Both the position numbers and the translations under genes were made by a program. The notes below the pieces were generated by a model. It did not search any database, had not been told where the DNA came from, and was given only the letters and a program-made list of their open reading frames with translations. From the NCBI GenBank assembly GCA_001803565.1, contig MHDQ01000293.1, forward strand, positions 1 through 6,342: a DNA stretch of 6,342 nt. Direction: 5' to 3'. Shown in pieces: positions 2,713 through 6,342 of the stretch. Position 1 is the stretch's first letter. Each line of letters starts with the position of its first letter. The stretch comes from Nitrospinae bacterium RIFCSPLOWO2_12_FULL_45_22. Its GTDB lineage: Bacteria > 2-12-FULL-45-22.

Positions 2713-2792
2713 TGAGTATTGCCGATAAAAGATTTTAGGGCAGATTTCATTATGCCATTTCTGTTCCTCGATAAGAAGAGACTATTAAAATT

Positions 2793-2801
2793 AAAGGAGG
2801 T
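2793..2801 (+). promoter_or_regulatory. Strong Shine-Dalgarno AAAGGAGGT fixing the start at 2809
   Basis: This near-perfect anti-16S match lies 7 nt before ATG 2809. That ATG is followed directly by a canonical Sec signal peptide. The longer in-frame extension to 2719 would place 30 residues in front of the signal and start before the predicted transcript. Confidence 0.85.
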
Positions 2802-2808
2802 AAATCAG

Positions 2809-5800
2809 ATGAAGAGTCATCTTCCAAAAAATTTAATCTTTTCCTCTACCTTTACCTTTCTAATTCTCTCCCTATTTATATTGGCCTCCTTTAACCCCAT
2901 CCAGGCCAGTACCAGCTCAATAAAGCTATCCTGGGAGCCTAATACTGACGCTGATTTAGCAGGATATAAGCTCCATTATGGGACTTCCTCCGGGAACTAT
3001 ACCAATACCATAAATGTAGGTAATGTGACCAGCTATGACCTATCTGGTCTGGAGAGTAGCAATACTTACTATATTGCTGCCACTGCTTATAATAGCTCTT
3101 CCTACGAAAGTATGTACTCCAATGAAGTAAGCGCGACTATTGGTAGTTCTGTCGATATTCCAACCGATGACCCACCCCCGGCTGATGATCCACCTCCTAC
3201 TGAAACCCTACCCCCGGCTGATGATCCACCTCCTACTGAAACCCTACCCCCGGTTTCATCCCTAGACCCCTCTGGCAAGCCCAAATCCCTTACCAATCCG
3301 TACGGGGTATATATTTGGCAGGATACCGATGACCTGGAGTGGCACCTCTGGACCACCTATGCCCCTAATGGCTTCAAGGATAACTATAAAGGGACAACTA
3401 TGACCCCGGTATCGGGCAAGATCACCCAGGCCAGCTATTATTCCCCTGAAGATTCTTATGAGACCATAACCTGGGATGCTGCCAGGGTTCATATAGACAA
3501 TATGGACGTCAATGGTACCGGTGGTATAGATGGGGTAGACTTCAAGGTAGATGGCTCCGAGGTAAGCTTCAAGATCGTCTTTTCAGGCTCCATCTCCCCT
3601 AAAAACATCTTTATCGGGGCCAATCTTGCTAACCCCGACTCCACCAGCTTTACCCTGAAAGGGCTAGTTACCGGAGAATCACCTCCTACCAATAGTCCAC
3701 CCCCGGCTGATGATCCACCTCCTACTGAAACCCTACCCCCGGCTGATGATCCACCTCCTACTGAAACCCTACCCCCGGTTTCATCCCTAGACCCCTCTGG
3801 CAAGCCCAAATCCCTTACCAATCCGTACGGGGTATATATTTGGCAGGATACCGATGACCTGGAGTGGCACCTCTGGACCACCTATGCCCCTAATGGCTTC
3901 AAGGATAACTATAAAGGGACAACTATGACCCCGGTATCAGCTAAGATCACCCAGGCCAGCTACTATTCCCCGGATTGGTCGGGAGAGACCATCACCTGGG
4001 ATGCTACCCGAATCCATGTTGACAATATGGACGTCAATGGTACCGGTGGTATAGATGGAGTAGACTTTCAGGTAGATGGTGCTGAGGTGAGCTTTAAGAT
4101 CGTCTTCTCTGGCTCTATCTCCCCTAAAAATATCTTTATCGGGGCCAATCTTGCTAACCCCGACTCTACCAGCTTTACCCTCAAAGGACTGGTTGCCGGG
4201 GAATCGCCCCCTACGGAGACACCGCCACCAGCTTCATCCATAGACCCTTCGGGCAAGCCCAAATCCCTTACCAATCCCTACGGGGTATATATCTGGCAGG
4301 ATACGGATGACCTGGAGTGGCACCTCTGGACCACCTATGCCCCTAATGGCTTCAAGGATAACTATAAAGGGACAACTATGACCCCGGTATCGGGCAAGAT
4401 CACCCAGGCCAGCTACTATTCCCCTGAAGATTCTTATGAGACCATAACCTGGGATGCTACCCGCATTAATATCAACAATATGCAGATCAATGGTACCGGT
4501 GGTATAGACGGAGTAGACTTCAAGGTAGATGGCTCCGAGGTTAACTTCAAGATTGTATTTAATGGTTCTATCTCTCCAGATAATATCTTTATCGGCGCCA
4601 ACCTGGCTCACCCTACCTCCACCAGCTTCACCCTCAAAGGTAAGACCTTAACCAGCAATCAATTGTCATCCTTGTCTTATGTTTACGGGAATGAATTGCC
4701 CCTACCTCCTCCTCCCCCTTCCTATAAGAAGAATATTCCCGTTAGTTCCCTGATCTTTCCCTTAGTGATATCAGACAGTCAATTCAGCACCACCCTAAGC
4801 CTGATAAATCCCTCTGCCTCTACCTCTATTACCATGACCCTATACAGCTCTGATGGGTCCTCTATCTCTACCTCTACCTCTGCCTTTCCTGCTGGAGAAA
4901 CCATGGAAGGATCATTGACCGATTTCTTCCCTAATATTCAGCAGCCTACAACACAGAACGTAGAACGTAGAACCCAGAACGCAGAAGGCGGAATATTCTG
5001 GATAATGATAGAATCTACCGAAAAGATTAAGGGTTTTGCAACTATTAGCCAGTCATCAGTCATCAGTCATCAGTCATCAGTTTACCAGCTACCTGCAATA
5101 GCTTCTGGGGCTAACACCCTCTATTTTCCTCTTGTAATGTCCGATGAAGCATGGCAGACACATTTGTCTATTCTGAATCCAAATGATGAAGAAGCCCCTT
5201 TGGTACTAACTCCCTATGATAAGGATGGCTATCCCTTAGCAGAGTATTCCAGCGTTGGCTCTTTGAAAGGGAAGGTCCTCTCTATTAAATATGTCCAGGA
5301 ATATTTTGTTGACTCTCTCCCTCCTGGCACAGCCTGGATAAAACTGGAGAGTGATAGTAAAATCATAGGAGTGGAGACAATTTCCACTATGGATAACCAC
5401 AATATTTATATGCTCCCAGCCGCAGTCAATGGCTATTCTACCCTGAATTTTCAGCTCCCTGTAATGGCTGTAGGAGAAGATTACGCCCAACGCAGAACGT
5501 CGAACGTTGAACACCAACAATCGAACGTCGAACGTCAAACGTCGAACGGATATCTTATCCTGTTGAATTTAAGCTTGCAGCAGGGCGCCACTTTCTCTAT
5601 AAATGCCTATGATAGCGATGGCAACCTGGTAGGATACAGCTCATCTATTGGCATTGCCCCGGGAGCACTAAAATTTGATACCATTTCACACTATTTTGAT
5701 GGATACTTACCCCCACAGAGTACCGGGATTAAAATAGACTCTGATGGCGCTCTCAATGGATTTGTACTATTCGATGGGAAAATCATTTTCCCCGAAAACC

Positions 5801-5850
5801 AATTACCCACTCAACTACTCGACAACTCAACCTCAACAGCGAGGAGGTAG
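2809..5850 (+). CDS. Secreted multidomain repeat protein (FnIII, triplicated 137-aa module, beta-repeat C-terminus)
   Basis: This is a 1013-residue exported protein. A Sec signal peptide (1-33; basic MKSHLPK, hydrophobic core, cleavage after NPIQA) is followed by a fibronectin type III domain (about 37-111: IKLSWEPNTDADLAGYKLHYG to YSNEVSATI). Pro-rich linkers with PADDPPPTETLP units follow. Three 137-residue modules occupy 149-285, 324-460 and 475-611. Each has GVYIWQDTDDLEWHLWTTYA and GIDGVDF; I recognise no family for them, though their Trp/Tyr content suits glycan binding. After a PPPPPP linker come three divergent beta-type repeats of about 105-130 residues (about 642-763, 764-871, 873-995). 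The first two show FPLV-SD...LS-L-NP cores, the third a weaker match. Three heptanucleotide arrays interrupt these repeats. No transmembrane anchor, LPxTG or PEP-CTERM ends the protein. It is probably co-transcribed with the glycoside-hydrolase-like gene 3 nt downstream under the sigma-54 promoter. A role in polysaccharide binding is an inference. Confidence 0.85.
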   Translation: MKSHLPKNLIFSSTFTFLILSLFILASFNPIQASTSSIKLSWEPNTDADLAGYKLHYGTSSGNYTNTINVGNVTSYDLSGLESSNTYYIAATAYNSSSYESMYSNEVSATIGSSVDIPTDDPPPADDPPPTETLPPADDPPPTETLPPVSSLDPSGKPKSLTNPYGVYIWQDTDDLEWHLWTTYAPNGFKDNYKGTTMTPVSGKITQASYYSPEDSYETITWDAARVHIDNMDVNGTGGIDGVDFKVDGSEVSFKIVFSGSISPKNIFIGANLANPDSTSFTLKGLVTGESPPTNSPPPADDPPPTETLPPADDPPPTETLPPVSSLDPSGKPKSLTNPYGVYIWQDTDDLEWHLWTTYAPNGFKDNYKGTTMTPVSAKITQASYYSPDWSGETITWDATRIHVDNMDVNGTGGIDGVDFQVDGAEVSFKIVFSGSISPKNIFIGANLANPDSTSFTLKGLVAGESPPTETPPPASSIDPSGKPKSLTNPYGVYIWQDTDDLEWHLWTTYAPNGFKDNYKGTTMTPVSGKITQASYYSPEDSYETITWDATRININNMQINGTGGIDGVDFKVDGSEVNFKIVFNGSISPDNIFIGANLAHPTSTSFTLKGKTLTSNQLSSLSYVYGNELPLPPPPPSYKKNIPVSSLIFPLVISDSQFSTTLSLINPSASTSITMTLYSSDGSSISTSTSAFPAGETMEGSLTDFFPNIQQPTTQNVERRTQNAEGGIFWIMIESTEKIKGFATISQSSVISHQSSVYQLPAIASGANTLYFPLVMSDEAWQTHLSILNPNDEEAPLVLTPYDKDGYPLAEYSSVGSLKGKVLSIKYVQEYFVDSLPPGTAWIKLESDSKIIGVETISTMDNHNIYMLPAAVNGYSTLNFQLPVMAVGEDYAQRRTSNVEHQQSNVERQTSNGYLILLNLSLQQGATFSINAYDSDGNLVGYSSSIGIAPGALKFDTISHYFDGYLPPQSTGIKIDSDGALNGFVLFDGKIIFPENQLPTQLLDNSTSTARR
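3253..3663 (+). repeat. 137-residue module, copy 1
   Basis: This 411-nt unit runs from Val-Ser-Ser-Leu-Asp-Pro to Thr-Leu-Lys-Gly. Together with the preceding linker, 3172-3413 reads identically to 3697-3938 (242 bp, period 525 nt). Its middle part carries the PEDSYET variant, shared with copy 3 and not with copy 2. Confidence 0.9.
3778..4188 (+). repeat. 137-residue module, copy 2
   Basis: This is another 411-nt unit. The first third is identical to copy 1, but the middle reads PDWSGET in place of PEDSYET and carries VSAKITQ in place of VSGKITQ. Its 3' third is close to copy 1 with scattered silent changes. Confidence 0.9.
4231..4641 (+). repeat. 137-residue module, copy 3
   Basis: This is also 411 nt. 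It follows a shorter linker (GESPPTETPPPAS) that lacks the doubled PADDPPPTETLP units. It shares PVSGKITQASYYSPEDSYET with copy 1 but is the most diverged copy towards its end (INNMQINGTGG, NGSISPDNIF). Confidence 0.9.
4947..4988 (+). repeat. Heptanucleotide array (CAGAACG/TAGAACG type), six units in coding sequence
   Basis: Five clear 7-bp units run from 4954 to 4988 (CAGAACG, TAGAACG, TAGAACC, CAGAACG, CAGAAGG), with one degenerate unit TACAACA before them. They encode TTQNVERRTQNAEG in the first C-terminal beta repeat. The two sister repeats lack this segment. Confidence 0.85.
5050..5081 (+). repeat. Heptanucleotide array CAGTCAT x4.6 in coding sequence
   Basis: Four exact CAGTCAT units plus CAGT occupy 32 nt and encode the heptapeptide-periodic SQSSVISHQSSV in the first C-terminal beta repeat. 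The unit differs from that of the other three arrays, so it is a second repeat class. Confidence 0.95.
5484..5546 (+). repeat. Heptanucleotide array (CGTCGAA type), about nine units in coding sequence
   Basis: From 5491 to 5546 there are eight 7-bp units. CGTCGAA occurs three times, with the variants CGCAGAA, CGTTGAA and CGTCAAA and two decayed central units. CGCCCAA at 5484 may be a ninth. The array encodes QRRTSNVEHQQSNVER and onward in the third C-terminal beta repeat. At this point the second repeat aligns without a gap once the array is removed. Confidence 0.85.
5841..5847 (+). promoter_or_regulatory. Shine-Dalgarno GAGGAGG for the downstream secreted hydrolase
   Basis: The site lies 6 nt before ATG 5854 and inside the last codons of the upstream gene, whose TAG is at 5848-5850. 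This arrangement supports tight operon coupling of the two secreted proteins. Confidence 0.8.
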
Positions 5851-5853
5851 ACA

Positions 5854-6342
5854 ATGTTAAGAAAGAAATTGTTCTCCATTCTTTGTCCGTTCTTCATCCT
5901 GGGTCTAACGTTGAACGTAGAACGCATAACGTTACCCGTTTCACCTTTATCCGCCTATGCCGCAACCTCAGGGGTCTCTATAATAGACGGTGAAGACTGG
6001 TCATTACCTTCCTGGGTAACTAGCTGGTCGCCTTATGGGGGGATATACTGGCAGTATCCGTCAAGAATGTCATATGTTACTAATCCAAATTTAGATGTTT
6101 TTGCGGCTAATTTTAACTGGAAGGACATTCATATAAAAGACGGAACTTATGATTGGTCAACAATAGACAATAAATTAACGCAAATAGCAGGTGCCGGCAA
6201 AAAAGGAATGTTGATATGGGAACATAGAAGGGTAGAGAATATACCTCAATGGGTTAAGGATAAATACCCATCGACAACTATTTACGGCAATTGGCTTTTC
6301 GCGTATTGGGAACCTGGTCCTGTTTCAGAACTTAAGAAATTC
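5854..6342 (+). CDS. Secreted TIM-barrel glycoside hydrolase-like protein, N-terminal part (cut by window end)
   Basis: The first 163 residues of an open frame that leaves the window. A Sec signal peptide (MLRKKLFSILCPFFILGL onward, cleavage near AYA-A at about 36) is interrupted by a heptamer array that encodes LNVERIT. The mature start is rich in Trp. The segment NFNWKDIHIKDGTYDW, then STIDNKLTQIAGAGKKGML and IPQWV, follows the W-x-x-I/L-E-P-x-x-G-x-Y-x-W-x-x-I-D...A...GK pattern. That pattern marks the first strands of GH42/GH-A-type and DUF4832-type barrels. The exact GH family and the catalytic glutamates cannot be seen because the C-terminal part is missing. It is translated from a strong ribosome site, 3 nt after the stop of the FnIII/repeat protein. 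This suggests that the two proteins act together outside the cell on a polysaccharide. Confidence 0.75.
   Translation, partial: MLRKKLFSILCPFFILGLTLNVERITLPVSPLSAYAATSGVSIIDGEDWSLPSWVTSWSPYGGIYWQYPSRMSYVTNPNLDVFAANFNWKDIHIKDGTYDWSTIDNKLTQIAGAGKKGMLIWEHRRVENIPQWVKDKYPSTTIYGNWLFAYWEPGPVSELKKF
5907..5934 (+). repeat. Heptanucleotide array (AACGTNG type), four units inside a signal peptide
   Basis: AACGTTG, AACGTAG, AACGCAT and AACGTTA follow one another with period 7. The outer units share AACGTT. Removing the 21 nt between them leaves the frame and restores an uninterrupted hydrophobic signal peptide (FFILGLTLPVSPLSAYA). Confidence 0.85.

Follow-up and report, generated by a model that had tools for sequence, protein, structure and literature searches.

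Heptanucleotide arrays in exported-protein genes of a Nitrospinae bacterium: probable relics of a mobile element family with an IVP gene between inverted arrays

Heptamer arrays in the window and in its genome

The stretch of DNA analyzed here (6,342 bp, referred to as the window) comprises contig 293 in full, part of the 3.67-Mb draft genome of Nitrospinae bacterium RIFCSPLOWO2_12_FULL_45_22. Two adjacent genes on its forward strand contain four tandem heptanucleotide arrays, whose probable relationship to small mobile elements carrying a gene of family PF05635 (23S rRNA intervening-sequence protein, IVP) is the subject of this report. Host gene 1 (2719-5850, likely start at 2809) codes for a secreted multidomain protein with fn3, three repeat domains of ~450 bp and three DUF5719-like sister domains. 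Host gene 2 (5854-6342) runs past the contig end and codes for an exported protein with a weak GH42-like match. Arrays 1, 2 and 3 lie in the first of these open frames, array 4 in the signal-peptide region of the second. A period of 7 was assigned to all of them by Tandem Repeats Finder: array 1 (4950-4986) has the consensus AACGCAG with 83% matches, array 2 (5050-5081) consists of 4.6 perfect copies of CAGTCAT, array 3 was reported at 5495-5548 (consensus GAACGTC, 73% matches) and begins at 5489 according to its pattern, and array 4 (5907-5932) has the consensus AACGTAG with 78% matches. Arrays 1, 3 and 4 are thus degenerate series of AACGTNG-type heptamers, and the CAGTCAT array alone is perfect. 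The repeat search and the open frames agree with the first-pass annotation, which had described four coding heptamer arrays in neighboring genes, three of them sharing one unit. The arrays are far beyond chance: AACGTNGAACG occurs ten times in the window at no more than one mismatch, compared to 0.15 matches expected from shuffled sequences. A search of the window against Rfam gave no match.

The frame of the host gene is free of stops across all four arrays, which are translated into TQNVERRTQNAE (array 1), QSSVISHQSS (array 2), QRRTSNVEHQQSNVERQTSN (array 3) and TLNVERIT (array 4). At arrays 1, 3 and 4, stops interrupt one or both of the remaining sense frames. These three arrays have GAAC polarity on the coding strand, which in array 1 corresponds to that of a right arm (GAAC followed by three nucleotides). 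When the sister domains of protein 1, three in number, were compared, ~11-15 additional residues were evident at site 1 and ~22 at site 3, while the excess at site 2 (CAGTCAT) is just ~4 residues. These differences in length support insertions at the array sites, and for sites 1 and 3 they bear out the earlier proposal that the arrays are added sequence.

To place the window in its genomic context, 80 contigs of the source genome (0.81 Mb) were surveyed. Arrays of period 7 (33), 8 (22) and 9 (4) were detected, all other periods giving 0-4 arrays each save 14, itself a multiple of 7. In a Markov control, no arrays were seen. An inverted partner within 160 bp was present for 23 of 57 arrays, a direct partner for only one, and many solo arrays are in fact inverted pairs resembling miniature inverted-repeat transposable elements (MITEs). 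Two arrays on one contig had the same unit in 8 of 21 pairs, as against 199 of 1566 pairs across contigs, the pairs being partly non-independent. Only seven of the 57 arrays are located in coding sequence, even though 85% of the sampled DNA is coding. The arrays therefore shun coding sequence.

Outside the window, AACGNNG arrays occur in few places of the genome. On contig 92 (26.9-27.3 kb), inverted AACGTNG arms lie on either side of a gene for a 126-aa PF05635 protein (23S_rRNA_IVP, 1.7e-35). As RNA, the arms of this element are predicted to pair around the IVP gene (z -3.5). A second inverted AACGTNG pair, at 28.05 kb, lies inside the next gene, which codes for a cysN-like GTPase. In an alignment of this GTPase with solved EF1A/CysN structures, the pair appears as an additional loop of the second domain, to either side of which the homology continues in the same frame. 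The pair also folds (z -4.7). Intergenic inverted pairs of the same unit were found on contigs 219, 302 and 30. Contig 44 harbors a CATTCCG-type IVP element within a run of same-strand genes, surrounded by the type I restriction genes hsdM, hsdS and hsdR (locus L201, 2020-14881), each of which contains in-frame CATTCCG-type arrays. The array region of hsdM amounts to ~33 residues compared to four in the solved homologue. Contig 44 parallels the window, which accordingly appears to be one case of a general pattern. Since arrays of the same unit reside in the cysN-like gene and arrays of another unit in the hsd genes, exported proteins are not special, and the earlier idea that the window represents a special surface-protein system is not supported.

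IVP genes between inverted arrays in many phyla

The arrangement seen on contig 92 is common. In the source genome, at least six of nine PF05635 genes are flanked by mutually reverse-complementary arrays, the unit differing from locus to locus (AACAAAG, AACGTNG, CCTAGAA, ATGAGCT and CATTCCG types and the 8-mer YAATAACC). Searching 84,980 species genomes with a single IVP protein uncovered 80 relatives in more than 15 phyla; an archaeal metagenome-assembled genome and the complete Desulfosarcina widdelii genome are among their sources. A phage collection gave no IVP match. Within 250 bp of the IVP gene, periods 7, 8 and 9 were strongly enriched and periods 4-6 and 10-13 absent; period-7 arrays amounted to 0.78 per kb upstream and 1.58 per kb downstream, compared to 0.05-0.22 per kb farther out. 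When the upstream arm was compared with the reverse-complemented downstream arm, a median score of 18 was obtained, while the same strand (9), the arms of other loci (9) and windows 1 kb off (8.5) gave much lower medians. A score of at least 13 was reached by 63 of 78 IVP loci and by only three of 255 far windows of the same loci. A set of 60 genomes gave a similar picture outside the source genome, where 17 of 20 strong IVP loci passed, as against one of 29 loci of the control family PF01909; at weak PF05635 matches in this set, inverted arms were mostly absent. The arms have a polarity as well, GTTC being more frequent than GAAC upstream of the gene (3.28 and 0.87 per 150 bp, respectively) and the reverse holding downstream.

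Both neighbors of the IVP gene are co-directional with it at 44 of 80 loci, and at none are both opposite, the baseline being that 76% of adjacent genes at these loci agree in direction. One Nostoc plasmid is an exception. The sense-oriented placement together with the pairing of the arms suggests that the transcript matters, as it does for 23S rRNA intervening sequences.

Some loci deserve separate mention. L074 and L094 (~4001-4354) apparently represent one insertion site, with a similar downstream gene, in two genomes; their arrays have very different lengths and units (7-mer and 8-mer), which suggests a fast turnover. In genome G009, 19 short PF05635 matches on contigs 2, 3, 7, 12 and 13 are mainly divergent pairs ~30-200 bp apart and thus unlike the single-gene element. 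On a Pseudanabaena plasmid (L180, 2350-3010), the IVP gene lies between cas6 and cas4 and is bordered on each side by long AAAAGCT arrays on the same strand, an exception to the inverted rule. At L181, the gene is positioned between cas10 and cmr3.

Evidence for mobility came from filled and empty sites. In a Nostoc plasmid operon (X-Y-Z), one plasmid contains an IVP element between Y and Z, others a different IVP element between X and Y, and both sites are empty and array-free in related plasmids. Further sites with empty relatives are an integrase/hypothetical junction, a two-gene operon and the nrdB-nrdA junction. At four or five sites of Nostoc and Calothrix plasmids, the arrays and the IVP gene are jointly missing in relatives, which indicates that they move as one unit. 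Candidate duplications of 6-7 bp were detected at two plasmid sites (TACTAAG, 7 bp, and ATTCTAR), while no clear duplication was evident at the others.

Origin of the window arrays

On these grounds the window arrays are probably in-frame, single-arm derivatives of a family of small mobile elements with inverted tandem-array ends. The full element would comprise a single gene for a PF05635 four-helix-bundle (IVP) protein, flanked on the left by an array that is often GTTCNNN and on the right by one that is often NNNGAAC, with a unit of usually 7 nt, sometimes 8-9 nt. It would sit mostly between co-directional genes, and in its transcript the two arms could pair so as to enclose the IVP gene. 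Arms may be retained since a stem built of repeats would still pair after the gain or loss of units. Copies deprived of the gene would remain as close, MITE-like inverted pairs or as single arms. In coding sequence, only stop-free and frame-keeping copies would be expected to survive, where additional residues are tolerated, while others would be purged by selection. For the window, the common unit, the polarity and the parallels on contigs 92 and 44 point to an origin in such an element rather than an independent rise.

Several observations weigh against this interpretation. No inverted partner lies within 300 bp of the window arrays, RNA folding revealed no structure for them, and no IVP gene is present on the 6.3-kb contig. 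The other genomes of the 60-genome set contain no homologue of the window protein, and no array-free orthologue was found. The CAGTCAT unit matches no IVP element seen in the source genome, and the window heptamers are so short and degenerate that descent is not provable by alignment. Finally, no mobilizing enzyme was identified for the family.

Alternatively, the arrays could be heptameric microsatellites of the ordinary kind with no tie to IVP genes, which replication slippage expanded on the spot in loops that tolerate them. The single-armed, unfolded state of the window arrays and the perfect CAGTCAT copies would fit this explanation. On the other hand, slippage does not account for one unit at three separate sites of the window that recurs in the arms of an IVP element and in inverted pairs elsewhere in the genome, nor for the prevalence of periods 7-9 in the sample. 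Inverted partners, found for two fifths of the arrays, are not a product of slippage. We therefore consider this explanation unlikely, though the most serious competitor to a mobile origin.

Two further proposals concern the mobilizer and are compatible with descent from an IVP element. The element might be moved by a Y1 (REP-associated or IS200-like) tyrosine transposase acting on hairpins, which would make it a relative of repetitive extragenic palindromic (REP) sequences and of REPINs. Y1_Tnp was present in all 23 IVP-bearing genomes but in only 17 of 37 IVP-free genomes (Fisher p 4e-6). However, most of 20 Y1 loci examined had no heptamer arrays, many had other inverted flanks, and the co-occurrence may merely mirror genomes rich in mobile DNA, so that a role of Y1 is doubtful. 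A mobilization at the RNA level, where the IVP protein would enlist a reverse transcriptase in trans, similar to Avd of diversity-generating retroelements, would agree with the structural relationship of PF05635 to Avd (PMC10053308) and with the strong sense orientation of the insertions. Yet reverse transcriptases were as frequent in IVP-bearing (6 of 23) as in IVP-free genomes (10 of 37, p = 1). Diversity-generating retroelements combine a reverse transcriptase and Avd with a template and a variable repeat, and the lack of an association between reverse transcriptase and IVP across 60 genomes separates the present elements from them. This route seems even less probable than the Y1 proposal.

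Phase variation of the secreted proteins by changes in heptamer number, as suggested in the first-pass annotation, appears very improbable. In its favor, units of seven nucleotides do not fit into triplets, slippage out of frame within array 1 or 4 would soon hit stops, and the perfect CAGTCAT array, if no other, could slip easily. Against it, the other three arrays are degenerate, such arrays are found mostly between genes and also in cysN and in genes of type I restriction, and a study of Xanthomonas and Nostoc heptamers judged phase variation unlikely (PMC4692102). The idea of surface diversification or phase variation is thus replaced by that of a widespread IVP-heptamer element, of which the window arrays are probably unusual coding relics.

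Relation to known repeats and implications

The closest parallel to the gene-carrying form is provided by the 23S rRNA intervening sequences with an S23/IVP gene of Leptospira and Coxiella, which have been proposed to be mobile and in which terminal inverted repeats enclose a PF05635 gene within the transcript (PMC4990558). This likeness holds for the element family, while the window possesses the arrays only. What separates the family from the intervening sequences is that its arms consist of heptamers in tandem, with a unit peculiar to each locus, that it resides between protein genes, and that it leaves gene-less copies, some of them coding. In line with this, no rRNA match was detected at the 18 IVP loci scanned, unlike intervening sequences, which lie inside the 23S rRNA gene.

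Short tandemly repeated repetitive (STRR) sequences of cyanobacteria are 7-bp tandem repeats that form hairpins, lie between operon genes and are of unknown function (PMC2670836). The arrays that flank the IVP genes of Nostoc and Calothrix plasmids resemble them, and the source-genome sample has in common with them the tandem 7-bp units, the dominance of period 7 and the non-coding position of 50 of the 57 arrays. STRR sequences have no known tie to a gene, whereas the arrays described here are tied to IVP genes and occur also beyond the cyanobacteria. Their units vary by locus. In the earlier literature, heptamers were used as fingerprints and described without a known function or a link to mobile elements; one study reported that they are generally unassociated with such elements. 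A link between IVP genes and heptamer arrays was not found in the open-access literature of PubMed Central.

In-frame insertion within unrelated protein genes is known from the small Rickettsia palindromic elements (PMC10969869) and is shared by the copies in the window, cysN and hsd genes. The Rickettsia elements belong to palindromic families of ~150 bp, while the present arrays are built of 7-mers, have a counterpart that carries a gene, and consist of one arm in the window. The window copies lack the hairpin palindrome of the Rickettsia elements, having neither an inverted partner nor a fold; the cysN copy does fold. The heptanucleotide elements of Geobacter metallireducens and the TAACTGA repeats of Beggiatoaceae, which have been read as regulatory sites, are also multi-copy and located within and between genes (PMC2700814, PMC4679880). 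Solo inverted pairs that share the unit of an IVP element resemble MITEs in being short and non-coding with terminal inverted repeats like those of the gene-carrying element, which does not apply to the single-arm copies of the window.

Some other features of the window and its genome were recorded. In host gene 1, the ~450-bp domain is repeated three times (3166-4640, ~86% matches), linked by proline-rich linker repeats of 36 bp. A palindrome (GCCTCTGCACTCTCTCT ... AGAGAGAGTGAAGCAGAGGC) at 1348-1400 lies in a HepT-like gene (open reading frame 1158-1400) that adjoins a nucleotidyltransferase gene; as the frame stops right after the palindrome, this is possibly a gene-breaking insertion. The start of the contig (5-51 and 97-151) contains an almost perfect inverted repeat of 23 bp and a REP-like hairpin (TGTAGGCACG.../...CGTGCCTACA). 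The source genome has five Y1 transposase matches.

Taken together, we lean, with some reserve, towards the view that IVP genes within inverted heptamer arrays constitute an undescribed, widespread class of mobile elements that has spread in sense orientation through operons of more than 15 phyla, and whose solo arms make up much of the bacterial heptamer (STRR) load and occasionally supply new peptides in proteins. A source would thereby be proposed for a type of repeat that has stayed unexplained ever since its discovery in cyanobacteria, and it would become apparent how short repeats of non-triplet length can get into coding sequence while the reading frame is preserved. IVP proteins are common but functionally blank, and the link to heptamers may give both the repeat and the gene a testable identity as one small element whose gene and ends are defined and whose empty sites occur in nature.
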